Source: Chitinispirillales bacterium (GTDB taxonomy: Bacteria; Fibrobacterota; Chitinivibrionia; Chitinivibrionales; Chitinispirillaceae). From it: a DNA stretch of 64,000 nucleotides. This document shows positions 6,662-49,078 of the stretch, in pieces. Under the pieces are notes generated by a model. It searched no databases. It was given only the letters and a program-made list of their open reading frames with translations, and had not been told where the DNA came from. The stretch covers positions 1 through 64,000 of the forward strand of contig JAIRVB010000020.1 of assembly GCA_031254105.1 (NCBI GenBank), given 5' to 3'. The position numbers and the translations under genes are program-made. Numbering within the stretch: position 1 is the first letter of the stretch; every line of letters starts with the position of its first letter.

Positions 6662-6735
6662 GGTTCTCCCGTAAACGTATAAGATTTATATCAAAATATA
6701 CTGCAAAAATATACTAAATGACGCTTCTGACTAAT

Positions 6736-6835
6736 AGTAGATAGTGATCGGCGGTCAGTGATTAGTTTTAAGAAAACGTGTCATGTAACTTTTCTTTTAC
6801 GGCTCTATCCGCTTAAACACTAATCACTATCTACT
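6736..6835. repeat. Inverted pair of degenerate 7-nt-period repeats in the 6,662-6,968 gap
   Basis: AGTAGATAGTGAT (6736-6748) is the exact reverse complement of 6823-6835. Around both arms the sequence runs in 7-base units (for example AGTAGAT, AGTGATC, GGCGGTC, AGTGATT). The rest of this 307-bp gap is AT-rich and must contain the divergent promoters of the flanking genes; I could not fix them. Confidence 0.7.
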
Positions 6836-17351: not shown

Positions 17352-17453
17352 GTGGAAATAATAATGCGGAAATAGGTAAGCGCACATGAGACGCAAAGAA
17401 AATTATCCGTGGCCCTTTTGCTTTATTTTTGCGTTCTGCATTATTATTTCCAC
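17352..17453. repeat. Inverted AATAATAATGC element spanning a gene start
   Basis: GTGGAAATAATAATGC at 17352-17367 is the exact reverse complement of 17438-17453. The second arm lies inside the signal peptide of the lipoprotein gene at 17386. The same AAATAATAATGCGG core recurs in several other intergenic regions of the window. Confidence 0.75.
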
Positions 17454-17796
17454 GTTATTTTTGATAGCTGGCTGCGGGGATAATGGTAAAGGTAACAGAG
17501 AACATGATCATAGACTTGTTCTGAACGATGGTTGTGTTTGGGTAAATCAAGTTAATAACAGAGTATGGATTTTTGAAGCTGACGGCAATGTTTATAGAGA
17601 ATCGACCAAGTGGCAGGGTGAGAAAGACCTGATGGGTGAGTGGTATACAAGCGGTAACACATTATTCGTAGATACAGAAATAGAGGGCGGCTTCTATATT
17701 GGTCTCTTTACCAGCGCTTATAGTGTTAATGACAGCGTGCTGATACTTATAGAGCCAGGGCTTTCAGCAGTATCTTATATAAAAACATGTCCCTGA
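17386..17796 (+). CDS. Small lipoprotein of unknown function
   Basis: A 136-residue protein with a lipoprotein signal: basic start, hydrophobic core and lipobox LIAGC with the acylated Cys at residue 30. The mature part is small and strand-rich (NRVWIFEADGNVYRESTKWQ; GGFYIGLFTSAYSVNDSVLI) and matches no family I recognise. Residues 18-23 (CIIIST) are encoded by one arm of the inverted repeat at 17352-17453. It follows dsbD by 47 bp, so co-transcription is possible. Confidence 0.7.
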   Translation: MRRKENYPWPFCFIFAFCIIISTLFLIAGCGDNGKGNREHDHRLVLNDGCVWVNQVNNRVWIFEADGNVYRESTKWQGEKDLMGEWYTSGNTLFVDTEIEGGFYIGLFTSAYSVNDSVLILIEPGLSAVSYIKTCP

Positions 17797-20966: not shown

Positions 20967-21368
20967 GTGAACAAGAAACTTACTAAAAAGCAGCTGCAAT
21001 ATTTTAAGGATAAGCTCCTTGCTGAGAAGCAAAAGGCATTGGAAGAGATGGGGGAGTTGCAGCAAAACAACCTTAAACAGTCTATATCAGATTCGGCGGG
21101 GGAGAATTCCCGCTATAGCTATCATCTGGGCGATGTCGCTTCACTCTCCTACGGGCGCGAGTTTTCGATGGGACTGGCCGAGCGGCAGCAGAAATATCTT
21201 GAGCAGATAGATGACGCTCTCAGAAGAGTAGAAGACGGCACCTACGGTATCTGCAAAGTGACAGGAGACGCCATTGACGTTGAACGCCTCGAAGAGGTTC
21301 CTGTAGCCAAGTATTCCGTAAAAGGCAAAGAGATCCTCGAACGCCGCAAGCGTCAGCAAGGGCTTTAA
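20967..21368 (+). CDS. DksA/TraR-type RNA polymerase-binding protein
   Basis: About 133 residues. An N-terminal coiled coil (LTKKQLQYFKDKLLAEKQKA, ending around GELQQNNLKQS), a central segment ending LRRVEDGTYGICKVTG, and a C-terminal helix match the TraR/DksA family that modulates RNA polymerase during the stringent response. Only one cysteine remains of the four that bind zinc in classical DksA, as in several non-proteobacterial members. I start at the GTG at 20967, directly behind GGAGGAG; the open frame to 20907 begins with an unrelated hydrophobic stretch. A terminator for this gene lies at 21436-21462. Confidence 0.82.
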   Translation: MNKKLTKKQLQYFKDKLLAEKQKALEEMGELQQNNLKQSISDSAGENSRYSYHLGDVASLSYGREFSMGLAERQQKYLEQIDDALRRVEDGTYGICKVTGDAIDVERLEEVPVAKYSVKGKEILERRKRQQGL

Positions 21369-21405: not shown

Positions 21406-23112
21406 GTGAGAAGCGGTAAAAGAAAAAAAGATAAGACGGCCGGTTTTTTTCCGGCCTTTTTTCTGTTCATGTTATTTGTACATTGTACATTATACACTGT
21501 ACACTGCCAGGAGCTTCTCCTGAACGCGGAAGGCAAACTTCTGAGCCCGCCCCCAAAATCCGCTCCTTACGCAAAAGCTTTGGCTTCAGCGCATATGGCG
21601 CAGGATTCACCTCAAAATACTATCCGCCGTATGCTTGATTCTTTGGGTTATCACGAGCAGGCCTGGGTTGAATCCGGTGATACTTTGCGGGTGGTTCCCG
21701 GCCCGCGTTTTTATATTACGGAAATTGAAATCGAGGGCGGGCCTCAACGCCTTGATATCCCTGAATCCATTTTTATGCCCTCTCTCTCATTTTACAATGC
21801 CGGTGTTATAAGAGAGACTATGCGGGGCCTCTCAAGATTCTTTTCTGAAAACGGATATCCTTATAACAAGATCGCTGTGTCAGTTGATATTCGCGATTCC
21901 GCCGCGCTTGGTCTGCGTTTTATTGTAGATACGGATGAAAGGGTTTGCAATGGAGCTGCCGTAATAAAAGGGGTTAAAAAGCGGCCCCAAAAATATTTGA
22001 AAGATGTGCGCCTGTTTGAGGGAGAGCCTTACAGCGGGGTTGACGCGGATGAAACGCTCAGGCGGCTCTCCATGCGGCCGTATGTGCGGTATGCGAGTAT
22101 AGGGTCTCCGGTAGTTATCGAGGATGCGCCGCTGTGTCATGATTCAATGAGGCAGGCTGTAAGCCAGATCACAATCGTTGAAAAAACAGGTCTTGATATG
22201 GAGGGAGTTTTAGGCTATGAATCCTCCGCGCAGGGTAAACAGAGCGGTCTCAGCGGCAGGCTTGATCTCTCATTTTTGAATCTGCTGGGTTTTGGTGAAA
22301 GCGCGACTGTCGGTTATATGGGAACAAACTCTCTTCAGCGGCTGAGGATGTCCGTTTCGAGGCCGTGGGTGTTTGGACTGCCCCTTGAAATGGGTGGAGG
22401 TTTTGAGCTTGAGATTGAGGATGAAGGATACGGTTTTTTGTGCGGTGAGTTTTGGACAACCATGGAGATAAACGGACGTTGGAAAGCGGGAATCGCTCTG
22501 AGAGGTTCGGAGACGGTTCCGCCTGACTCCATTGAACCGGCTTATAAATTTTACGGTACCGATCTTTTTCTCACCCTCATATCTCAACCGTGGCAAAGGG
22601 GAAAGACCGTAAAAGAGCTTTCGATGAAAACCGGAAGCGGTCTTGCCAACAGAGAAAAAACCGTTACCCGCGGCAAAATGGAGTTTGCCGCGGGGATACA
22701 TCAGCCCATTTTTACCAGATACGCTCTGGCAGGGCGGATCAGCGGCAAAACACTGTTTACTGACGAAAATTATTTATCGCCTTCTGAAACTTACAGGATA
22801 GGCGGGCATAACTCTCTGAGAGGGTATTCTGAGGAGGAGTTCGCGTTTCGCTCGGTGCTGTTTTCGCAAGCGGAAGCGCTTCTCTATTTTGATCAGAGCT
22901 CATCAATATTTATTTTCTTTGACAGCGGCATTGGCTTTGATCAGCCGGGTAAGCTTTTGTTTGCGGAAGGGCAAAAGATGTTTGGCTACGGCGCGGGTCT
23001 GCGCTTCCCATCCCGTCTCGGAACCGTCTCCCTTGAATGGGGGAGAAACCTTGATGACGGCAGTAAAGGACTCGGGCGGATACATGTTGGAATAAAAACA
23101 GGACTGTTGTAA
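21406..23112 (+). CDS. Omp85 family outer-membrane protein (TamA/BamA-like)
   Basis: The 568 residues contain POTRA-like segments (ITEIEIEGGPQRLDIPESIF; VCNGAAVIKGVKK) and a C-terminal barrel with the diagnostic YRIGGHNSLRGYSEEEFAFR motif. Omp85 proteins insert or translocate outer-membrane and secreted proteins. The GTG at 21406 gives a good signal peptide (basic start, then AGFFPAFFLFMLFVHCTLYT); a later ATG at 21469 would give a poor one. The DNA for that signal is the terminator of the previous gene plus a heptamer repeat, which is unusual. The last residue is Leu rather than the usual Phe. A TPR gene follows. Confidence 0.85.
   Translation: MRSGKRKKDKTAGFFPAFFLFMLFVHCTLYTVHCQELLLNAEGKLLSPPPKSAPYAKALASAHMAQDSPQNTIRRMLDSLGYHEQAWVESGDTLRVVPGPRFYITEIEIEGGPQRLDIPESIFMPSLSFYNAGVIRETMRGLSRFFSENGYPYNKIAVSVDIRDSAALGLRFIVDTDERVCNGAAVIKGVKKRPQKYLKDVRLFEGEPYSGVDADETLRRLSMRPYVRYASIGSPVVIEDAPLCHDSMRQAVSQITIVEKTGLDMEGVLGYESSAQGKQSGLSGRLDLSFLNLLGFGESATVGYMGTNSLQRLRMSVSRPWVFGLPLEMGGGFELEIEDEGYGFLCGEFWTTMEINGRWKAGIALRGSETVPPDSIEPAYKFYGTDLFLTLISQPWQRGKTVKELSMKTGSGLANREKTVTRGKMEFAAGIHQPIFTRYALAGRISGKTLFTDENYLSPSETYRIGGHNSLRGYSEEEFAFRSVLFSQAEALLYFDQSSSIFIFFDSGIGFDQPGKLLFAEGQKMFGYGAGLRFPSRLGTVSLEWGRNLDDGSKGLGRIHVGIKTGLL
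21436..21462 (+). terminator. Intrinsic terminator lying inside the next gene's signal-peptide codons
   Basis: GGCCGG (21438-21443), a T-rich loop and CCGGCC (21451-21456) followed by six T form a classical terminator for the dksA-like gene. In the Omp85 frame the same bases encode residues 11-19 (TAGFFPAFF). Confidence 0.75.
21476..21510 (+). repeat. Heptanucleotide repeat tract inside the Omp85 signal peptide
   Basis: TTGTACA, TTGTACA, TTATACA, CTGTACA, CTGCCAG follow one another without a break. In the Omp85 frame they encode the end of the hydrophobic core, FVHCTLYTVHC. Confidence 0.85.
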
Positions 23113-23133
23113 GGGCGGCAGCCTGCCGTCCGC
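23113..23133 (+). repeat. Short GC-rich hairpin repeat
   Basis: GGGCGGCA and TGCCGTCC pair across a three-base loop directly after the Omp85 stop codon. It has the form of the dispersed hairpins at 36407-36611, 38629 and 42103. Confidence 0.6.
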
Positions 23134-23239
23134 ATACTGGATAACGAAGACGATGAAAAAATATATCACATTACCCGCCCCAAAAAATTCCACTCTTAAA
23201 GAGAGGCGCCCGAATCCTTTTTCTGACGGAGTGGTTTAT

Positions 23240-24958
23240 ATGGCTTCTAACAAAGTAACATCATTAGTTATTCACTATTCACTATTAGCTATTACTTGCC
23301 TTTGCCTTTCTCCTGTCATTTTCTCCCAACCGTTTGCGGAATGCGCAGACACATCACACTGGTTGCGATCCGGTTCCCACCGTAAAGAAATTCTCAAACA
23401 GTTCAACGCCCCGAATATAACGGAAGAGTGCTTCTGTTCAATGGTCTCGCAATTAAATTCATTTGACCCTAAACTGCTTGAAGATTCTACCGCCGCGGTT
23501 TTTGCTTCGCGTTCAGTCAAGGGACGTTTTTCCCCGGCGCTTTTCCTTTGCCTTTCCCGTAATGACTCTCTTGTAAACAACAAAAAAATCTGGAGCGCGG
23601 CCGCTCAGGCATGGGCCGACGCAAGCGTTATACCTGTGTACGGAGTCCTCGCCTCATACTCAGAGGGCGGCAGAATGCCGGCCGCCGACTCCCTGTACCG
23701 CGCGTTGGACGCTGTCGGCATGCTGGATGTTCATGATAACCTGCGCTGGGCGCGTATAAAGAGTCTTTTGGGAGATTACCGTGGGGCCGCGTCTCTGTAC
23801 TGTAAAGTAATTGCCGCGGACAGGCGTATGTTATATCCTGCTATGGGCCAGATGGGTCAGCTCTTTATAGATACCGATTCCCGCGAACTGTTAACTGCGC
23901 TTGAGGAGTTCAGAACATGCGCTCTTGGTCTTGAGTCGGGCGACACCGCTTATTTCAGAAACTGGCTTGCGGACTTTTATAGCCGCGCCGCCATTTATGA
24001 TAAAGAGATAGAGATACTCGCGTCCCTTGATATCCCATCCTCACCTGTAAACAACAAACTTGCTGACATCGCGAGAACTCATTTTTCTAAACGCCGTTAC
24101 CGTCACGCCGCAAACAGCGCGGCGTTGGCGTTTGAGCGCTTGGAGAAAGGTCAGCCGCGCTCAAACGCAGCCTTTATCGCGCATCAATCCTACATGCGGC
24201 TTGGAATAAGAGATTCCGCGCTTGTCTGGTTAAAACGCGCTGAACTCACAGATAACGCGGCTAAAATTCAGGCGGCAGCTTTAAATCAGGAAACAGGGCA
24301 TTTGCAGGCAGCGCTTACGCTTATTGACTCATTATCACCTTCTTTGTCAAAAGATACGCTTATTATCAGACAATACCTTTTTTCAAAAGAAGTTGACAAA
24401 GCGCTTAATTACGCGTCCTCTGCGCTAACTTCCTGGCGGCAGCATCCAAGAGAAAAGGGGTTGTGGCGCGCAAGATGTTTTATTTTCAGCGGTCAACCGC
24501 TTGCCGCCGTTTCCGCTATGGATTCCGTCTCTTTCTCCGCCGCCTGGCATGGCAGCGCGCAGCTGCTTCGTTACAAGTATCAACTGCAAATGCTTGCGGA
24601 TGATAAGGCCGCTCTAAAGACATGGGCAGAGATTGAATACCTCATTTTTATTGAAGACCTGACAGCCGCTGTCCAAAAGCTCAAAGTCTACACCCCCGCG
24701 GGCGCGGCGGGGGAGATGATAGTTTTAAGGGTCGGACAACAGCTTGTCAATTCAGGCAGAACAACAGAAGCGTTCGAAACGCTGGATTTAGTTAAAAACA
24801 GTGAACTAACCTCTGAGTTTCTTTACTTCAAAGCAGAAGTATTATATTCAGCAAACCGCAAAGAAGAAGCCCGCGCGGCGGCAGGAAAGCTTCTTACCGA
24901 TTTTCCGGCGGATGTTTTTGCCCAGAAAGCAAGGATCCTGCTTTCGAGGATAGATTGA
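23240..24958 (+). CDS. Exported tetratricopeptide-repeat protein
   Basis: A TPR-type solenoid of about 572 residues with paired helices (RYRHAANSAALAFERLEKGQ; DSALVWLKRAELTDNAAKIQ; RTTEAFETLDLVKNSELTSE; NRKEEARAAAGKLLTDFPAD). I choose the ATG at 23240, which has GGAG eight bases upstream and opens a signal peptide (SLLAITCLCLSPVIFSQPFA); the frame is open to an ATG at 23153. It follows the Omp85 gene and may assist it in the periplasm, as TPR proteins do in Bam or gliding machineries; that is inference. Confidence 0.7.
   Translation: MASNKVTSLVIHYSLLAITCLCLSPVIFSQPFAECADTSHWLRSGSHRKEILKQFNAPNITEECFCSMVSQLNSFDPKLLEDSTAAVFASRSVKGRFSPALFLCLSRNDSLVNNKKIWSAAAQAWADASVIPVYGVLASYSEGGRMPAADSLYRALDAVGMLDVHDNLRWARIKSLLGDYRGAASLYCKVIAADRRMLYPAMGQMGQLFIDTDSRELLTALEEFRTCALGLESGDTAYFRNWLADFYSRAAIYDKEIEILASLDIPSSPVNNKLADIARTHFSKRRYRHAANSAALAFERLEKGQPRSNAAFIAHQSYMRLGIRDSALVWLKRAELTDNAAKIQAAALNQETGHLQAALTLIDSLSPSLSKDTLIIRQYLFSKEVDKALNYASSALTSWRQHPREKGLWRARCFIFSGQPLAAVSAMDSVSFSAAWHGSAQLLRYKYQLQMLADDKAALKTWAEIEYLIFIEDLTAAVQKLKVYTPAGAAGEMIVLRVGQQLVNSGRTTEAFETLDLVKNSELTSEFLYFKAEVLYSANRKEEARAAAGKLLTDFPADVFAQKARILLSRID
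23257..23298 (+). repeat. Heptanucleotide repeat tract inside the TPR-protein signal peptide
   Basis: AACATCA, TTAGTTA, TTCACTA, TTCACTA, TTAGCTA, TTACTTG run in register. In frame they encode TSLVIHYSLLAITC, the hydrophobic core of the signal peptide. Confidence 0.85.
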
Positions 24959-25067: not shown

Positions 25068-26171
25068 ATGAACAATGACTATAAAAAATGGATTATCGAG
25101 GTAAAGCAAAAAATCCGCTCAACCCAAATAAAAGCGGCAATTGCCGTAAATTCTACTTTGATTGAGTTTTATTGGTATTTGGGGAAGATGATCACCGAAA
25201 AAGAAAATGTATGGGGCGGTAAACTTATTGAACAAGTTTCAAAAGACCTTAAAGAAGAGTTTCCTGATATGCAGGGCTTATCACGCAGAAATCTTTTCAA
25301 TACCCAAAAATTTTACCAATTTTATAGTAATTCAATAGTGCAACAACCTGTTGCACTAATTGGGCAACAGCTTGTTGACCAATTACAAACCATTGAAAAT
25401 AAACAAGATACAACTTATCCTCGAACCGAAGATAAAATAGTGCAACAACTTGTTGCCCAAATCCCCTGGGGACATAATATTCTCATTTTCACGAAATCAA
25501 AAGACATAAAAGAAGCGCTCTTCTACATCCAAAAAACAAAAGATAACAACTGGAGCCGGGATACGCTGGCATTGCAGATAAAATCAAATTTGTACAAAAG
25601 ACAAGGCAAAGCAATTACCAATTTTACCAACACCCTGCCCGCGCCCAACAGCGATCTTGCACTGCAAACCTTGAAAGATCCCTATATATTCGATTTTTTA
25701 CAGCTTGCCGAAGATTATAAAGAACGCGATATAGAAAACCAGCTTATACAACATATTATCCGGTTTTTGCTTGAGATGGGTAAGGGATTCGCGTTTGTCG
25801 GGAAACAGTATAATATCCAGCTTAACGAAAAAGAATATTTTATAGACCTGCTATTCTATCACATCCCGCTGCAATGCTACGTAGTCGTAGAATTAAAAAA
25901 TAAAGATTTTGAACCGGAATTTGCCGGAAAGCTCAATTTCTATCTCACGCTCATTGACAAAACGCTAAAGCGGGAGAATGAAAATCCAACAATCGGTATA
26001 TTACTGTGCCGCGGCAAAGATAATATGGAAGTGGAATATGCTTTACAGGATATACATAAGCCTATGGGCGTAAGCGAGTTTAAATTGGATGAAGCGCTGC
26101 CGGAGAATTTTAAGAGCAGTTTGCCTAGTATTGAGGAGTTGGAAGAGGAGTTGAAGAAGATTGAGAAATAG
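25068..26171 (+). CDS. DUF1016 (YhcG-type) PD-(D/E)XK nuclease-domain protein
   Basis: A 367-residue protein. The N-terminal DUF1016 helical domain (NSTLIEFYWYLGKMITEKE; FPDMQGLSRRNLFNTQKFYQ) is followed by a variable Gln/Val-rich linker and a PDDEXK nuclease domain (FAFVGKQYNIQLNEKEYFID, LLFYH, then VVVELKNKDFEPEFAGKLNF), with the Asp, Glu and Lys of the active site visible. Family members occur beside restriction and other defence genes, but their role is unclear. It ends 52 bp before the type V effector on the same strand, so it may be co-transcribed with it. The linker contains three palindromic GCAACA/TGTTGC insertions. Confidence 0.85.
   Translation: MNNDYKKWIIEVKQKIRSTQIKAAIAVNSTLIEFYWYLGKMITEKENVWGGKLIEQVSKDLKEEFPDMQGLSRRNLFNTQKFYQFYSNSIVQQPVALIGQQLVDQLQTIENKQDTTYPRTEDKIVQQLVAQIPWGHNILIFTKSKDIKEALFYIQKTKDNNWSRDTLALQIKSNLYKRQGKAITNFTNTLPAPNSDLALQTLKDPYIFDFLQLAEDYKERDIENQLIQHIIRFLLEMGKGFAFVGKQYNIQLNEKEYFIDLLFYHIPLQCYVVVELKNKDFEPEFAGKLNFYLTLIDKTLKRENENPTIGILLCRGKDNMEVEYALQDIHKPMGVSEFKLDEALPENFKSSLPSIEELEEELKKIEK
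25336..25456 (+). repeat. Three palindromic GCAACA-TGTTGC units within the DUF1016 gene
   Basis: TAGTGCAACA (25336-25345) pairs perfectly with TGTTGCACTA (25349-25358). CAACA/TGTTG at 25365-25377 and GCAACA/TGTTGC at 25442-25456 repeat the pattern. In frame they encode VQQPVA, GQQLVDQ and VQQLVAQ. Similar units lie between genes near 43952-43995. Confidence 0.75.
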
Positions 26172-26223
26172 CGGGGTGAGGTTTGGTAATAACAATTTTG
26201 GTAGTTTATCAAGGGAGAGAAAA

Positions 26224-29200
26224 ATGAATCAGGAAGTACAAGGAAAACAATATCAATTCTCAAAGACATTGCGTTTTGGATTAACTTCTACAAATCAAAA
26301 TCTGTATTCCGAAGAAACCATGAGATTATTGAAGGTTTCGCAAGAAAAAATAGAAAAACAGGTCAAGAAAGAAAATAATAATACCGACAAAACCAATCAA
26401 TTAAGAAATTGTTTGGTTCAAATAAAAGAATATCTGAAAACTTGGGATAATACTTATCCACAAATTGATTTTCTGGCAATTACAAAAGATTATTACAAAG
26501 TAATTTCAAGGAAAGCGAGATTTGATTTTGATAAAGGAAATGGCTCTGAAATAAAATTATCTTCCTTGCAATCAATGTATAACAACAAGAAACGCTATCA
26601 ATATATTACGGATTTTTGGAAAGAAAATTTGCACAAAACCGAAAATTTATATCGAAAGTCAGATGATTTATTAAGAATATTTGAAGAAGCTGAAAAACAA
26701 AATCGTGAAGACAAAAAACTGAATAAAGTGGAATTGCGAAAAACTTTTTTGAGTTTGTTTAATCTCGTAAATGAAAGCTTGAAGCCATTAATTGAAGGAA
26801 ATCTGTTTATTGTAAATGATGAGAAAATTGATGAACAAAATCCAAAACATAATTATGTGTCAGATTTTATTTTAAAGGCCGAAGCACGAAAACCATTGTA
26901 TAATTGTATCGGTAATTTGCAAAATTATTTTAAAGATAATGGTGGGTACGTGCCTTTTGGTAGAGTCACATTAAATAAATGGACTGCACTACAAAAATCC
27001 AATAATAGAGATACTAAAATCAATAGGATTATTAAAGAATTAAAAATTAATAGCTTTTTAATAAAAAATATTAATTATAAATATAATGAATTTACTAGCA
27101 ACTTTAAAGAAAAGAAAGATAAAAAAGGTAAAATTGTCAAAAACAAAGATGGTGATATTGTGTGGGAATTGGAGCCTAATGACAAATCTGTTATCGAACT
27201 CTGCCAGTTTTTCAAGTATAAAAAAATTCCAATAAACGCTTGCTTAAATCTTGCAAAAAGATTGATAAAAGAAAACAAGTTAGAAAAGGAAAAAGAAAAT
27301 ACTTTTTTAAGTGAATTAGGGGTTTCAAAATCGCCAGCTTTGGATTATAAAAAGGACCAAAGTAATTTTAGTCTCACAAATTATCCGCTAAAAGTTGCCT
27401 TTGATTACGCTTGGGAAAATTGCGCAAAAGCCAAATATGAAGATATTCCTTTTCCGAAAAAACAATGTGAAAAGTATTTGAGAGATGTGTTTGATTTAGA
27501 CATTGAAACCAATGCTGATTTTGCAAAATATGCTTTATTACTGAGATTCAAAATTTTAATCGGAAGAATTAAAGTAGAAGAAACAACAAGGATAGAAAAC
27601 ATTGCCACTATTAAAGAATTTTTTAATGATGTCAAAAGCAATCTAACAAAAGAAAAAGATAAAACTGTTGCAGAAATAAATAATTGGCTCACATTCAAAG
27701 AAAATCAAACGGATAAGAAAGCAAAATATTCAAATCAAGATGAGTTTTCCGAAGCGATGAAAACCATAGGGGAGGAGAGAGGCGGATTAAAAAGCAAAAT
27801 TTCAAGATACAAAGCATTAACCGATATGTTTAAGGTTTGTTCTTCAAAGTTTGGAAAACAATTTGCCGATTTGCGAGATTACTTCAATGAAGCGTATGAG
27901 GTTGATAAAATTAAATATCGAGCTTGGATTATTGAAGATGACAAAAAGAATCGTTTTGTTTTGCTTGCAGATAAAGGAAAAGAAGTTGGTTTAACTTCAG
28001 GAAATGGTGATTTATATTTTTATGAAGTCAAAAGTTTGACTTCCAAATCTCTTGTAAAATTTATAAAAAATAAAGGTGCTTATCCTGATTTTCATAATAA
28101 AAAAAGTGAAGATGGGTTTTGCCAAATATATTTAAATTCTGAAAATAAAGAAAATAAAGATAGGTTTATAGATGATGTAAAAATACATTGGAGCACATAT
28201 AAAAACGATCAGGAATTTTTAAAAAAACTAAAAGAGTGTTTAAAAAATTCAAAAATGGCTATTGAACAGAATTGGAACGAATTCAATTTTGATTTTTCAG
28301 AATGTGACAACTATGAAAAATTGGAAAAAGAAATTGATAGAAAAGGATATAAATTTGAACGAAAAGCAATTTCACTGACTGATATTACAGATTTGGTTGA
28401 AAACAAGGAATGCCTTTTACTGCCTATTGTAAATCATGATATTAATAAAGAAAAACAAACTGAAAATCAAAGTCAATTTACCAAAGATTGGTTTGCTATT
28501 TTTAAAAATAAAAAGCACTTACATCCTGAATTTAATATATTCTATCGCTTTCAAACAAAAGATTATCTGAAAACAAAATTTAAAAATGGAACGGAAAAAA
28601 CAAAACGATATTCCCGTTTTCAAATGCTGGCTCATTTTGGTTGTGAAGTTATTCCTCAAGGCGATTATTTAAGCAAAAAAGAGCAGATTGCAATTTTTAA
28701 TGATGATGAAAAACAAAAAAAAGAAGTTGAAAATTTTAAAGAAAACATTTCTTCGGATTTTGATTATGTTATTGGAATTGATAGGGGAATAAAGCAACTT
28801 GCAACGCTTTGTGTTTTAGATAAAAAGGGAGTAATTCAGGGCGATTTTCAAATTTTCACACGAAAATTTAATGACATTACAAAAAAATGGGAACACAAAG
28901 AATTAGAAAAGCGCAATATCTTGGATTTATCAAATTTGCGAGTTGAAACAACAATTGCGGGCGAAAAAGTTTTAGTTGATTTAGCAAGTATTAAAACCAA
29001 AAAAGGTGAAAATCAGCAGAAAATCAAACTAAAAGAGTTGGCTTATATTCGTGAGTTGCAATATGCTATGCAAACAAGAAAAGACGAATTGTTAGATTTT
29101 GCAAACAAAATAAATTCTGCTGATGACATAACAGAAGACAGTATTAAGAACTTTATTTCACCATACAAAGAAGGGACGCGTTATGCCGATTTGCCAAAAT

Positions 29201-29994
29201 CAGAATTTTTTAATAGATTAACAGAATGGAAAAATGCAGACGACAAAGGAAAACTAAAAGTTGCTGAACTTGACTCTGCGGATAATTTGAAATCAGGGAT
29301 TGTTGCCAATATGATTGGAGTTATTGCGTTTCTTTGTGAAAAATATAAATATAAAGTTCGTATTTCTTTGGAAGATTTAACAAGAGCTTATGGTATCCAA
29401 AAAGACGCGTTAAGCGGAACAGCAATTTATCAAAATGATGAAGATTTTAAGGAACAAGAAAATCGCAGACTTGCTGGCGTAGGAACAATGCAATTTTTTG
29501 AAATGCAACTTTTAAGAAAATTATTTAAAATACAGATTGATGAAAAATTATGTCTTATTCCCTCATTTCGAAGTGTAGCCAATTATGAAAAGATCGTTCG
29601 TAGAGATAGGAAAAGTAGCGGTGATAAATTTGTTAATTATCCTTTTGGAATTGTGTGTTTTGTTGATCCCAGCTATACAAGTCAAAAATGCCCATACTGC
29701 GATAATAAACACAAGAAAAATGATAAAGAAACAGGAAAGAAGGCATTTTATAGAGATAAAGGGGAGAACAAAAACTCTCTACTATGCAAACAGTGTGGAG
29801 TTTCAACAATTAAAGGACAAGAAAAACCAAGTAATAAAAATGATAGCAAAAAACAATTTAATATTCACTTTATTACTAACGGCGATGAAAATGGAGCTTA
29901 CCATATCGCAAAAAAGACACTTAATAATTTGATACCAAACAATAAAAATAATAAAAACCAGCCAAGTGATTTTCCTATAGGCACCTGTACCTGA
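26224..29994 (+). CDS. cas12a2: Type V CRISPR effector of the Cas12a2 (Cms1) group
   Basis: 1,256 residues from the ATG behind AAGGGAGAG; a longer TTG start at 26161 would overlap the previous gene. The N-terminus (YQFSKTLRFGLTST) is Cas12a-like. RuvC motifs are intact: IGIDRGIKQLATL (Asp 853), ISLEDLTRAYG (Glu 1050), NGDENGAYHIAKK (Asp 1221). Between RuvC-II and III, TSQKCPYC (Cys 1156, 1159) and LLCKQCG (Cys 1188, 1191) make a complete zinc ribbon where Cas12a has its Nuc domain. The flanking order, with VANMIGVIAFL just before RuvC-II, matches my memory of the Smithella Cms1 protein. Known Cas12a2 binds target RNA and then cuts DNA and RNA indiscriminately. Base composition is far more AT-rich than the neighbours. 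A divergent Cas12a remains possible but less likely. Confidence 0.85.
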   Translation: MNQEVQGKQYQFSKTLRFGLTSTNQNLYSEETMRLLKVSQEKIEKQVKKENNNTDKTNQLRNCLVQIKEYLKTWDNTYPQIDFLAITKDYYKVISRKARFDFDKGNGSEIKLSSLQSMYNNKKRYQYITDFWKENLHKTENLYRKSDDLLRIFEEAEKQNREDKKLNKVELRKTFLSLFNLVNESLKPLIEGNLFIVNDEKIDEQNPKHNYVSDFILKAEARKPLYNCIGNLQNYFKDNGGYVPFGRVTLNKWTALQKSNNRDTKINRIIKELKINSFLIKNINYKYNEFTSNFKEKKDKKGKIVKNKDGDIVWELEPNDKSVIELCQFFKYKKIPINACLNLAKRLIKENKLEKEKENTFLSELGVSKSPALDYKKDQSNFSLTNYPLKVAFDYAWENCAKAKYEDIPFPKKQCEKYLRDVFDLDIETNADFAKYALLLRFKILIGRIKVEETTRIENIATIKEFFNDVKSNLTKEKDKTVAEINNWLTFKENQTDKKAKYSNQDEFSEAMKTIGEERGGLKSKISRYKALTDMFKVCSSKFGKQFADLRDYFNEAYEVDKIKYRAWIIEDDKKNRFVLLADKGKEVGLTSGNGDLYFYEVKSLTSKSLVKFIKNKGAYPDFHNKKSEDGFCQIYLNSENKENKDRFIDDVKIHWSTYKNDQEFLKKLKECLKNSKMAIEQNWNEFNFDFSECDNYEKLEKEIDRKGYKFERKAISLTDITDLVENKECLLLPIVNHDINKEKQTENQSQFTKDWFAIFKNKKHLHPEFNIFYRFQTKDYLKTKFKNGTEKTKRYSRFQMLAHFGCEVIPQGDYLSKKEQIAIFNDDEKQKKEVENFKENISSDFDYVIGIDRGIKQLATLCVLDKKGVIQGDFQIFTRKFNDITKKWEHKELEKRNILDLSNLRVETTIAGEKVLVDLASIKTKKGENQQKIKLKELAYIRELQYAMQTRKDELLDFANKINSADDITEDSIKNFISPYKEGTRYADLPKSEFFNRLTEWKNADDKGKLKVAELDSADNLKSGIVANMIGVIAFLCEKYKYKVRISLEDLTRAYGIQKDALSGTAIYQNDEDFKEQENRRLAGVGTMQFFEMQLLRKLFKIQIDEKLCLIPSFRSVANYEKIVRRDRKSSGDKFVNYPFGIVCFVDPSYTSQKCPYCDNKHKKNDKETGKKAFYRDKGENKNSLLCKQCGVSTIKGQEKPSNKNDSKKQFNIHFITNGDENGAYHIAKKTLNNLIPNNKNNKNQPSDFPIGTCT

Positions 29995-30113
29995 AAGGTT
30001 AAACTCTGCTTTTTGTTTGGTTCATATTTTGCTATTATCACAAACTGCGGAAATTGAAATGGGAGCAGGTGTTTAGTCTGTTAGAAAGGTAATTTTCAAG
30101 GGTGGGAATAATC

Positions 30114-30680
30114 ATGGAAAATTACCTCTCTATCTCCACCCTCAACGACTTCGTCTTCTGCCCATATTCCATCTATCTGCACAACGTGTATATGGCAGCG
30201 GACGAAGAGCTGTTCCACGCGGCCCCGCAAACCCAAGGCAAGGCTTCTCATCGGGCTATTGATGCTCAAACCTACAGTACTAAACAGGACATAATAGTTG
30301 GTCTGCCGGTTTTTTCCAACGAATTTGGGATTGCCGGTAAAATTGATATATACAAAAGTGAGGAAAAATCCCTTATTGAACGCAAGCATCAGCTTAATAA
30401 AATATACAAAGGTCAAATTTATCAGTTATGGGCGCAATACTTTTGTATGACTGAGATGGGATATTGGATAGAGAAGCTCTCCTTTTATTCAATATCCGCA
30501 AATAAAACTTACCCTGTGAATATTCCGTCTGAAGATGATAAAAAAGAGTTCGCCGGATTTATTCTCAATTTAAGAAATTTCGATCCTGAGACAGAAATTC
30601 CCATTAATGAAAACAAATGCAGACACTGCGTGTACTGTAACTTATGCGATAAAACAGAGGTGGAAAATGTTTACTCATAA
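30114..30680 (+). CDS. cas4: CRISPR-associated exonuclease Cas4
   Basis: Cas4 trims prespacer ends and helps choose the PAM during spacer acquisition. About 188 residues with the N-terminal YLSISTLNDFVFCPYSIYLH (first cluster cysteine), the RecB-type nuclease motif AGKIDIY followed by LIERKHQLNKIYKGQIYQLW, and the C-terminal cysteine cluster CRHCVYCNLC. Both the iron-sulphur cysteines and the nuclease residues are visible. I start at the ATG at 30114 after GGGTGGG; a GTG at 30102 is in frame. The end overlaps cas1 by 14 bases. Confidence 0.92.
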   Translation: MENYLSISTLNDFVFCPYSIYLHNVYMAADEELFHAAPQTQGKASHRAIDAQTYSTKQDIIVGLPVFSNEFGIAGKIDIYKSEEKSLIERKHQLNKIYKGQIYQLWAQYFCMTEMGYWIEKLSFYSISANKTYPVNIPSEDDKKEFAGFILNLRNFDPETEIPINENKCRHCVYCNLCDKTEVENVYS

Positions 30681-31635
30681 AGATATACGATACCGCTCTA
30701 TCATCGTTGTAAACTCGCGTGAAGAGAAATCGTTCAGGGTATCCGGCGGGGTATTGTTATTGGAAGATAAGAAAACGCAAAAGACGCTTACAAAATTTCC
30801 TTTTCAAAAAATATTGTCCATTTTCATTGTGGGAAACGCGACAATAACAACGCCTCTCATAGAAAAGTGTACAAAATTCGGAGTATCAATTGTTGCTCTT
30901 AAAACGAATTTGCGCCCTGTGTTTTTCTACTCATCAACGGCGGAGGCTAATTTTCTGTTACGTAAACGGCAGTATGAGTATACAAAAGAAAATTTACAAA
31001 TACCTAAAATACTTGTGGAAAACAAAATCGCCAATCAGATAAAGTTATTGGAAAAAACAAGGATAAGATCTGAGCTCATCCAAAACGCTAAGGAACAGTG
31101 CCAAAATTTGTTATCAACGCTGCCTCAAGCCGCTACCTGCGACACTGTTATGGGCATAGAAGGGAAAGCGTCCGCCATATACTTTAACGCGTACTTTGAA
31201 CCGTTTGATTGGAAGATGCGCCGCCCCAGAACAAAAATCGATCCCATAAACGCGACTCTGGATATCGGGTATACCATTCTGTTTAATTTTATAGAAACAT
31301 TTATCCGCTTGTTCGGCTTTGATCCCTACCGCGGGGTTTATCATCAGTTGTGGTTTAAAAGGAAGTCTCTCGTCTGCGACCTGGTCGAGCCGTTCCGGTG
31401 CCTGATAGACTGGCAAACCCGAAAAGCGTTTAATACCAAGCAGTGCAAAGCGGAAGATTTTAACTTTCAAAAAAACGAATACACTCTTAAAAGAGAAGTA
31501 AGCGCCGAATATGTAAAGATGTTCTACGACCTTTTAGTGGAACATAAAAATGACATCTTTATTTACATGCAAAAATATTACCGCGCTTTTATGAGGCAAA
31601 AAGTTTCCGCCGATTATCCAAAATTTCTGATTTAG
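30667..31635 (+). CDS. cas1: CRISPR integrase Cas1
   Basis: Cas1 with Cas2 inserts new spacers into the array. The protein has 322 residues from the ATG at 30667, behind GAGGTGG; the frame is open to 30607. The N-terminal strand domain (IIVVNSREEKSFRVSGGVLL) is followed by the helical catalytic domain with MGIEGKASAIYFNAYF (active-site Glu), DPYRGVYHQLWFKRKSLVCD (active-site His) and LVEPFRCLIDW (third acidic residue). It overlaps cas4 and is followed after nine bases by cas2. Confidence 0.94.
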   Translation: MFTHKDIRYRSIIVVNSREEKSFRVSGGVLLLEDKKTQKTLTKFPFQKILSIFIVGNATITTPLIEKCTKFGVSIVALKTNLRPVFFYSSTAEANFLLRKRQYEYTKENLQIPKILVENKIANQIKLLEKTRIRSELIQNAKEQCQNLLSTLPQAATCDTVMGIEGKASAIYFNAYFEPFDWKMRRPRTKIDPINATLDIGYTILFNFIETFIRLFGFDPYRGVYHQLWFKRKSLVCDLVEPFRCLIDWQTRKAFNTKQCKAEDFNFQKNEYTLKREVSAEYVKMFYDLLVEHKNDIFIYMQKYYRAFMRQKVSADYPKFLI

Positions 31636-31644
31636 GATACCGTA

Positions 31645-31920
31645 ATGTTAATCGTAAGCTATGACATAACAGACAATAAGCTGCGCGCTAAATTCGCAAA
31701 AACATTAATAAAACAGGGCGGAATCAGATTGCAGCTCTCTGTTTTTGAACTTAATAACACATCCCGCGTATTGGAAAATTTAAAAATCAGGATAGAAAAT
31801 TATTACAGTAAAAAATTTGAAGGCGGAGACAGCGTACTCATTTTTGAAACAGATGAACAAAAAACAATCAAGTACGGCAACGCGATTCATAGAGATAAAG
31901 ATCTGGTATTTTTTCCATAA
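31645..31920 (+). CDS. cas2: CRISPR-associated protein Cas2
   Basis: A 91-residue ferredoxin-fold protein with the Cas2 signature MLIVSYDITDNKLRAKFAKT, a QGGIRLQLSVFEL strand and VLIFETDEQ near the end. Cas2 is the structural centre of the Cas1-Cas2 integrase. It is the last gene of the cas operon; the leader and array start about 230 bp later. Confidence 0.94.
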   Translation: MLIVSYDITDNKLRAKFAKTLIKQGGIRLQLSVFELNNTSRVLENLKIRIENYYSKKFEGGDSVLIFETDEQKTIKYGNAIHRDKDLVFFP

Positions 31921-32148
31921 AAACATAGTTTGATGGTTTCTCAGCTGATAATAACCATCTCTATACAAAGGTGTGTCTTTATAAATTTTTTAAAGCAAAT
32001 CGATTATGGCCTTTAACTCTGTAAAAATCGATATAATACCGTTTATTATGAAAATTCGTTGTAAGCTTAGGGGGGGTAAAATAGTTTTGACGAAAAAGCT
32101 GAAAAAACTTTGCCCACAGGCCGTTTTATTATTATTTTAATTGTAAGC
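31921..32148 (+). promoter_or_regulatory. Leader region of the type V CRISPR array
   Basis: 228 bp of AT-rich, gene-free sequence between cas2 and the first repeat, in the usual place for the leader with array promoter and integration site. TATAAT at 32032-32037 could be a -10 box, though its -35 partner is weak. The perfect repeats lie on this side and the decayed ones on the far side, which confirms the leader end. Confidence 0.7.
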
Positions 32149-32998
32149 GTCTAATAGACGTTTGAAATTTCTACTATTGTAGATGCGAATACTGCAAGAG
32201 TTAACTTTTCTGGTCTAATAGACGTTTGAAATTTCTACTATTGTAGATGGAAGCTGTTTTTGCTTTTAATCTTCTTGTCTAATAGACGTTTGAAATTTCT
32301 ACTATTGTAGATAAAATTTCCATTTCATTTTCGGTATCAGGTCTAATAGACGTTTGAAATTTCTACTATTGTAGATATCTCTTACCGTGTCGTATATTTT
32401 TCACGTCTAATAGACGTTTGAAATTTCTACTATTGTAGATCGAAGACGTAGCAAATACCTTTATAATGGATGGTCTAATAGACGTTTGAAATTTCTACTA
32501 TTGTAGATCGTAAACCATCAGGAGCAAGAAGCTTGAGTCTAATAGACGTTTGAAATTTCTACTATTGTAGATAATACGGCTTATAGAACATGCGAATTCG
32601 TCTAATAGACGTTTGAAATTTCTACTATTGTAGATAGTGCTTGAGAAATCACCAAGTGCTGCATGTCTAATAGACGTTTGAAATTTCTACTATTGTAGAT
32701 TGTCGCCCCCCTCTCTTCTTCGAGTATTGTCTAATAGACGTTTGAAATTTCTACTATTGTAGATCATAACAGACACTATACCAACTATTATGTCTAATAG
32801 ACGTTTGAAATTTCTACTATTGTAGATCTTTCGTATGTGTAAAGGTTTTTTGTTGTCTAATAGACGTTTGAATGTAGATGAAGAAGAGAAGTAAATTGAA
32901 CTGTCTCTGGTCTGATAGACATTCGAAAATCCTGATATTGTAGATTTTAGCGCGTGAGCCGGTTTATATGCGGTCTGGCTGGTGTTTGAAATTTACTC
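32149..32998 (+). CRISPR. Type V CRISPR array: 11 perfect 36-bp repeats, then three decaying ones
   Basis: Perfect repeats start at 32149, 32213, 32277, 32341, 32405, 32473, 32537, 32600, 32665, 32729 and 32792, with spacers of 27-32 bp. Each begins with the palindrome GTCTAATAGAC and ends AATTTCTACTATTGTAGAT, the standard Cas12a-type crRNA handle with stem TCTAC/GTAGA. Repeat 12 (32855-32879) has lost 11 internal bases, including part of the stem. Repeat 13 (32910-32945) is full length but has several substitutions. A fragment at 32973-32998 resembles the first two thirds of a repeat and overlaps the 3' end of the next gene. Confidence 0.98.
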
Positions 32999-48926: not shown

Positions 48927-49028
48927 ACACAACCTCCGGCTTAAAGTATAACAATTGTTATCGAAAGAAATTTTACAAAAACCAGACACATAAAATACAT
49001 GGGATACGCGCTTCCACGCAACAAAAAA

Positions 49029-49078
49029 TGCAAATTACAAATTGCAGATTACAAATTACAAATCCAAGTCACAAATTA
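49029..49078. repeat. Heptanucleotide repeat tract
   Basis: TGCAAAT, TACAAAT, TGCAGAT, TACAAAT, TACAAAT, CCAAGTC, ACAAATT run in a 7-base register in the gap upstream of the propeller gene. A shorter related stretch (AATCACAAATTGCAAAGG) lies before the Omp85 gene near 21385. Confidence 0.8.

Follow-up and report, generated by a model that had tools for sequence, protein, structure and literature searches.

Several exported proteins of a Chitinispirillales bacterium are likely to owe the hydrophobic cores of their signal peptides to short dispersed repeats, kept at these places since such cores have little sequence requirement. Repeat-made signal cores were found in seven genes: three in the window, that is, the whole 64-kb stretch of DNA presented here (contig C38), and those at C5:82940, C29:14906, C31:33675 and on C55 (L345). 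The tally is small: five to six cases within 1.64 Mb and one more identified by similarity. For six of the seven (the three Omp85 proteins, the amidase, the TPR gene and the lipoprotein), the exported type is independently backed by Pfam, by the signal peptide of an orthologue or by a lipobox.

Results

Host genome and samples

The host belongs to the Chitinispirillales, phylum Fibrobacterota, as a protein from the window has matches at 82–93% in MAGs named Chitinispirillia or Chitinispirillales. It is a bacterium of the termite-gut type with a 3.68-Mb genome, of which 2.04 Mb was used, as an analysis set of 1.64 Mb (45% of the genome) and a test set of 400 kb. Gene calls and signal calls were obtained with simple scripts, the signal call being a simple hydrophobicity score. 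Period-7 tracts in the window were defined by at least 16 of 21 matches at lag 7, and repeats, for the calculation of densities, as 15-mers occurring at no fewer than three intergenic sites in the sample. The period-7 and 15-mer counts were run separately, so that the result is independent of a single definition. An Rfam scan of the window returned tRNA only.

Probable repeat-built signal peptides in the window

Table 1. Features at the probable repeat-built signal peptides. Positions are those of the window unless a contig is given.
Feature	Position	Strand	Basis and remarks
Left arm of MITE-like inverted repeat (GTGGAAATAATAATGCGGAAAT)	17352..17373	-	Inverted-pair search; complement of first 16 bases recurs in right arm
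Lipoprotein gene, 136 aa, lipobox LIAGC	17386..17796	+	Translation; start codon between the two arms
Right (outgoing) arm TTTATTTTTGCGTTCTGCATTATTATTTCCAC	17422..17453	+	Inverted-pair search; in frame, lipoprotein signal core FIFAFCIIIS
DksA/TraR-type gene, directly 5' of Omp85 gene	20967..21368	+	Pfam zf-dskA_traR
Omp85-superfamily gene, GTG start, predicted signal peptide MRSGKRKKDKTAGFFPAFFLFMLFVHCTLYTVHC	21406..23112	+	PF01103, E 1e-6
Terminator-like hairpin GGCCGG-T7-CCGGCC-TTTTTT	21438..21462	+	-16 kcal/mol, z -2.8; encodes AGFFPAFF
Period-7 tract, TGTACAT family, distal signal core LFVHCTLYTVHC	21469..21508	+	18/21 lag-7 matches
TPR-type exported gene, ATG 23240, predicted signal peptide MASNKVTSLVIHYSLLAITCLCLSPVIFSQPFAECA	23240..24958	+	Translation, Pfam, sister orthologue
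Period-7 tract, CACTATT type, encodes SLVIHYSLLAIT	23263..23298	+	17/21 lag-7 matches
N-acetylmuramoyl-L-alanine amidase gene	C5:82940
Caspase-like gene	C29:14906
Second Omp85 protein gene	C31:33675		Pfam
Third Omp85 protein gene	C55, in L345

At the threshold of 16/21, the 64 kb of the window contain period-7 tracts only at the two places listed in Table 1 and at 49025–49065. A sequence-only reading had placed heptamer tracts in the signal cores of the neighbouring Omp85 and TPR genes. Both tracts are indeed in frame within the predicted signal peptides, and the positions agree to within 1–2 bases, FVHCTLYTVHC being encoded by 21475–21507 and TSLVIHYSLLAITC by 23258–23299.

The Omp85 gene has matches in 39 of the 41 genomes searched, its own genome counted, and the order of the DksA/TraR and Omp85 genes is common to the sister and other relatives. 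In the sister, the corresponding tract retains period 7 at 14/21 (shuffle P 0.0003), and a gap-free alignment of the two tracts over 39 bases has 25 identities. The window tract therefore probably predates the split from the sister and stayed hydrophobic, the sister copy having decayed. The strong hairpin at 21438–21462, downstream of the DksA gene, falls within the codons predicted to encode the Omp85 signal peptide; it may act as an attenuator, or may once have been the dksA terminator and later been taken into the Omp85 gene.

The start of the TPR gene was set at ATG 23240, which has a GGAG a few bases upstream and was preferred to the mechanical ORF start at 23153. In the sister orthologue, the signal peptide, MNKSIQTIFFIFCLCFAQLLADD, is shorter and free of repeats. 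The stretch preceding the common TTGCCTTTG measures about 35 bases here versus 17 in the sister, and the version that is longer by about 18 bases is heptameric. A strict pattern search for the 23263 tract gave zero copies elsewhere, and relatives picked up in loose scans were no richer than with shuffled heptamers, so that its assignment to a sparse, diverged family is tentative.

The lipoprotein gene, given as a third case by the sequence-only reading, has a repeat-built signal core, but this core is the right arm of an inverted repeat and contains no heptamer array. Both the start and the signal core lie inside the MITE-like inverted repeat 17352–17453, and FIFAFCIIIS precedes LIAGC. The 15-mer TTCTGCATTATTATT of the right arm occurs at 24 intergenic sites in the sample. 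The Pfam search with this protein gave no match and the search in the sister weak similarities only. A cassette shared by the signal peptides of the lipoprotein and the C55 protein (NYPWPF and NYAYPF before the arm) was considered and discarded, as the DNA similarity extends only about 10 bases beyond the arm.

Further cases and comparison with the sister

Examples of the cores in the four genes outside the window are NFCILHSALLFIII, FYFISALCVIIFAF, ILSYISAFCIIISALF and FYFIFAFCIIFSAL. In the translations, the predicted signals consist of a positive n-region, an uncharged hydrophobic core and a cleavage or lipobox region. At C31:33675, the sister gene starts about six bases past the upstream stop with an ordinary signal peptide, LKYIIKIYLIVMGFTISLMAFEPQ. 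A whole element occupies that place here and supplies the ATG, the n-region and the core, followed by what appears to be the old c-region. The sister, without the element upstream of this gene, represents an empty site, at this one locus. For the amidase, the sister signal peptide is colinear with only CTGCATTATTATTG in common, and the array is absent in the sister. Either an old tract decayed in the sister or a local conversion took place here, and the repeat copy may be ancient or in part a product of convergence. The search in the sister with the caspase-like gene was without match. In more distant relatives, the signal peptides are ordinary.

The repeats thus appear to have replaced or extended older signal peptides, given the ordinary ones of the sister and of distant relatives. 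The adoption of repeats by gene starts had been proposed from the window, together with an alignment of orthologues as a check. That alignment supports it: in the sister, the C31 gene has an ordinary signal, the TPR gene a shorter one free of repeats, and the Omp85 gene a decayed tract homologous to that of the window. Two further candidates, C45:20019 and C27:27967, were set aside as probably false starts 5' of the true ones.

The tracts could be 5' untranslated DNA, with the real starts downstream and the hydrophobic reading an accident of T-rich open repeats. This is unlikely: cleavage-type c-regions or a lipobox directly follow the tract, the sister orthologues begin at the corresponding place, and no second signal peptide is found 3' of the tract although the families and orthologues are exported. 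In favour of untranslated DNA are the intergenic location of most repeats, the weak or missing Shine-Dalgarno sequence of several predicted starts (those of the C29, C31 and C55 genes have no match) and the presence of the terminator-like hairpin between GTG 21406 and the tract. We infer that translation proceeds from the predicted starts and that these N-termini export the proteins.

Period-7 tracts and repeat families

Period-7 tracts exceed chance. The first 855 kb sampled contain 38 of them (≥17/21), versus 0–3 for periods 4–6, 8–11 and 13; in an independent 790-kb sample there are 23 strong ones, versus 0–4 for other periods. Many form inverted pairs with a spacing of 30–130 bases in the sampled DNA, and 53 inverted pairs were counted in 1.64 Mb. 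The commonest repeat is TTTTATTTCTGCATTCTGCATTATTATTT. Arms of the TTTCTGCATTCTGCATTATTATTT type number 173 in the host genome, 4 in the sister and 0 in 39 other relatives; TGTACAT arms number 47 in the host genome and 0 in the sister and other relatives, and the TGTACAT family pattern gives 63 overlapping matches in the genome versus 0 for the control. The repeats are MITE-like, being short inverted repeats with many near-identical dispersed copies, and also STRR-like, consisting of tandem 7-bp units dispersed between genes with a period of 7 that stands out.

Convergence, by which T-rich repetitive signal peptides would mimic period 7 without DNA from a dispersed family, is improbable. Exact 15-mers found at 6–30 intergenic sites occur in several of the repeat-built signal peptides, and the partner arm is also present at the lipoprotein, C31 and C55 genes. 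Among exported-like N-termini, 5 of 324 have period 7 at ≥16, whereas codon-shuffled versions reach the laxer value of 15 only 0.26 times on average. Convergence would fit the lack of a strict copy of the 23263 tract elsewhere and the sister amidase signal peptide, which has CTGCATTATTATTG but no array. It would also fit C15:51793 (a LysM/transglycosylase lipoprotein) and C54:74093, which reach the period-7 threshold, match no dispersed family and were left uncounted.

A phase-variable switch, whereby the addition or deletion of one 7-bp unit shifts the frame and toggles export, is hardly credible: any slippage would cause a frameshift, seven not being divisible by three, and heptanucleotide repeats cause phase variation in some bacteria (e.g. 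HMW1A), but the units here are few (about four) and imperfect and would resist slippage, and the sister tract can be aligned without a gap.

Distribution and enrichment

Repeat position, reading frame and identity are shown by the analysis, as are the distribution and the sister comparison. In 1.64 Mb, the density of repeats per 100 kb is 202 in intergenic DNA, 17 in codons 11–40 of exported genes, 17 in the last 25 codons of all genes and 0.5 in gene interiors. In codons 11–40, repeat 15-mers were counted in 5 of the 325 exported genes, versus 1 of the 865 others (Fisher P = 0.007), the C31 gene being placed among the exported by homology (Omp85, Pfam) and one unrelated terminator-like hit being left out. 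With the 23240 gene added, the count is 6 versus 1 (P = 0.002), and the comparison of signal-peptide codons with gene interiors gives P = 3e-6. The label "exported" in the count is based on hydrophobicity, which the repeat itself supplies, and the Pfam and orthologue checks lift this circularity only for the named cases. The fresh 400 kb gave zero new cases versus about 1.5 expected.

The absence of genome-wide enrichment had been named beforehand as a refutation of adoption, and exported N-termini are enriched in the 1.64-Mb sample. Tolerance explains the pattern and targeting is not indicated, since the density in signal peptides is far below that in intergenic DNA. Adoption through tolerance is upheld by the enrichment and the orthologues, with the amendment that the signals are not wholly new, repeats having apparently taken over existing ones. 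Three cases in 6 kb, as initially reported, exceed the density in the genome by far (Poisson 2e-6, calculated post hoc for a region picked for that very cluster); a run of exported genes is the sole explanation offered.

Discussion

Short dispersed repeats, with arms of degenerate 7-bp units and many in inverted pairs of about 65–150 bp (MITE-like), have expanded in the host species. They persist mainly between genes and, within coding DNA, nearly always at protein ends. With a T-rich outgoing strand, the second positions of codons are mostly T and the peptide is hydrophobic. An element at the 5' end of a gene with an exported product could provide a Sec signal peptide with its hydrophobic core through this arm, and in some cases would also give the start codon and n-region. 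The gene would stay functional since nearly any hydrophobic sequence will do as a signal core. Non-exported genes would mostly be unable to absorb an arm, with the exception of start-codon tips (C5:109040, C29:4952) and C-terminal tails.

The outgoing arm of the main family is stop-free and hydrophobic in all three frames (FYFCILHYY, FISAFCIII, LFLHSALLF), with Kyte-Doolittle means by frame of 1.6, 2.6 and 1.8. The incoming strand is hydrophilic, with an ATG in one frame (MQNAEIK). It is conceivable, if rather doubtful, that the main repeat is in effect a portable signal-peptide donor that works in either orientation thanks to its inverted-repeat layout and renews secretion signals, one arm giving the ATG and a charged n-region (MQNAEIK) and the outgoing arm being hydrophobic. 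Were this true, the persistence of the repeat would be helped by its harmlessness or usefulness at the starts of exported genes.

Cyanobacterial STRR are short tandem 7-bp repeats dispersed between genes, a feature in common with the repeats described here. We know of no signal-peptide role for STRR.

A signal peptide made by a MITE was predicted earlier for the RU-2/YPAL element in Yersinia YPO1552 (Delihas 2007, PMC2759123, PMC2229807). That case concerns one small putative protein, whereas several genes of conserved families, including three Omp85 genes and an amidase gene, are concerned here; moreover, the present arms consist of 7-bp units and the sister shows an element-free signal peptide. 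The TAACTGA repeats of marine Beggiatoaceae include in-gene heptamers at protein peripheries (MacGregor 2015, PMC4679880). They are likewise abundant short 7-bp direct repeats, mostly intergenic, with in-gene copies mainly at protein ends. However, they consist of a single heptamer located just 5' of start codons, for which regulation was proposed, whereas the repeats here fall into many heptamer families, are frequently arranged in inverted pairs and serve as signal cores. Rickettsia palindromic elements (RPE) are dispersed palindromes in frame in conserved protein genes (PMC2229807). Both sets are dispersed, palindromic and in frame, but RPE are reported to be fused inside conserved proteins whereas here the interiors are almost empty and the ends are used. 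In the open-access literature, no report was found that combines repeat-made signal cores in several conserved genes with an element-free state in a sister.

Signal peptides change rapidly in evolution, and the DNA they came from can rarely be recognised; in this genome the donor repeats are still abundant, and a sister species displays the repeat-free state. How non-coding repeat DNA becomes a signal peptide can thereby be traced in conserved families such as Omp85. There is also a warning for gene callers, as in repeat-rich genomes an exported gene may have its start inside a repeat.

Other repeat elements and arrays

Incoming arms probably provide the start codon and the initial residues (MRNAEI, MQNAEIK, MSYNSEFRIQNSK) of genes at C5:109040, C54 (stretch from 80001):2494, C31:33675- and C29:4952-. 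C-terminal tails and stop codons come from repeat arms in at least a dozen genes, for example C5:205415-206320, C15:122167-124200 and C54 (stretch from 80001):284-1198. Many tracts start at a distance of 0–10 bases from a stop codon. Between convergent genes, inverted heptamer pairs (C14:31554-31652, C42:20235-20344 and similar ones) form long stems and might be terminators or stabilisers of mRNA ends. The 1.64 Mb contain at least 10 copies of a uniform palindromic element of 66 bp (AAATAGATG...CATCTATTT), flanked by constant sequence (C54:16295, C15:17522, C14:88504 and others); in this class, the flanks are themselves part of the repeat.

Within the window, an inverted pair of diverged CACTAAT heptamer tracts lies between genes at 6733–6830. 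At 26161–32828, a large ORF precedes a repeat array that contains GTCTAATAGACGTTTGAAATTTCTACTATTGTAGAT, a Cas12a-like repeat, and a second CRISPR-like array with a different repeat is located near the window start, at 637–1594.
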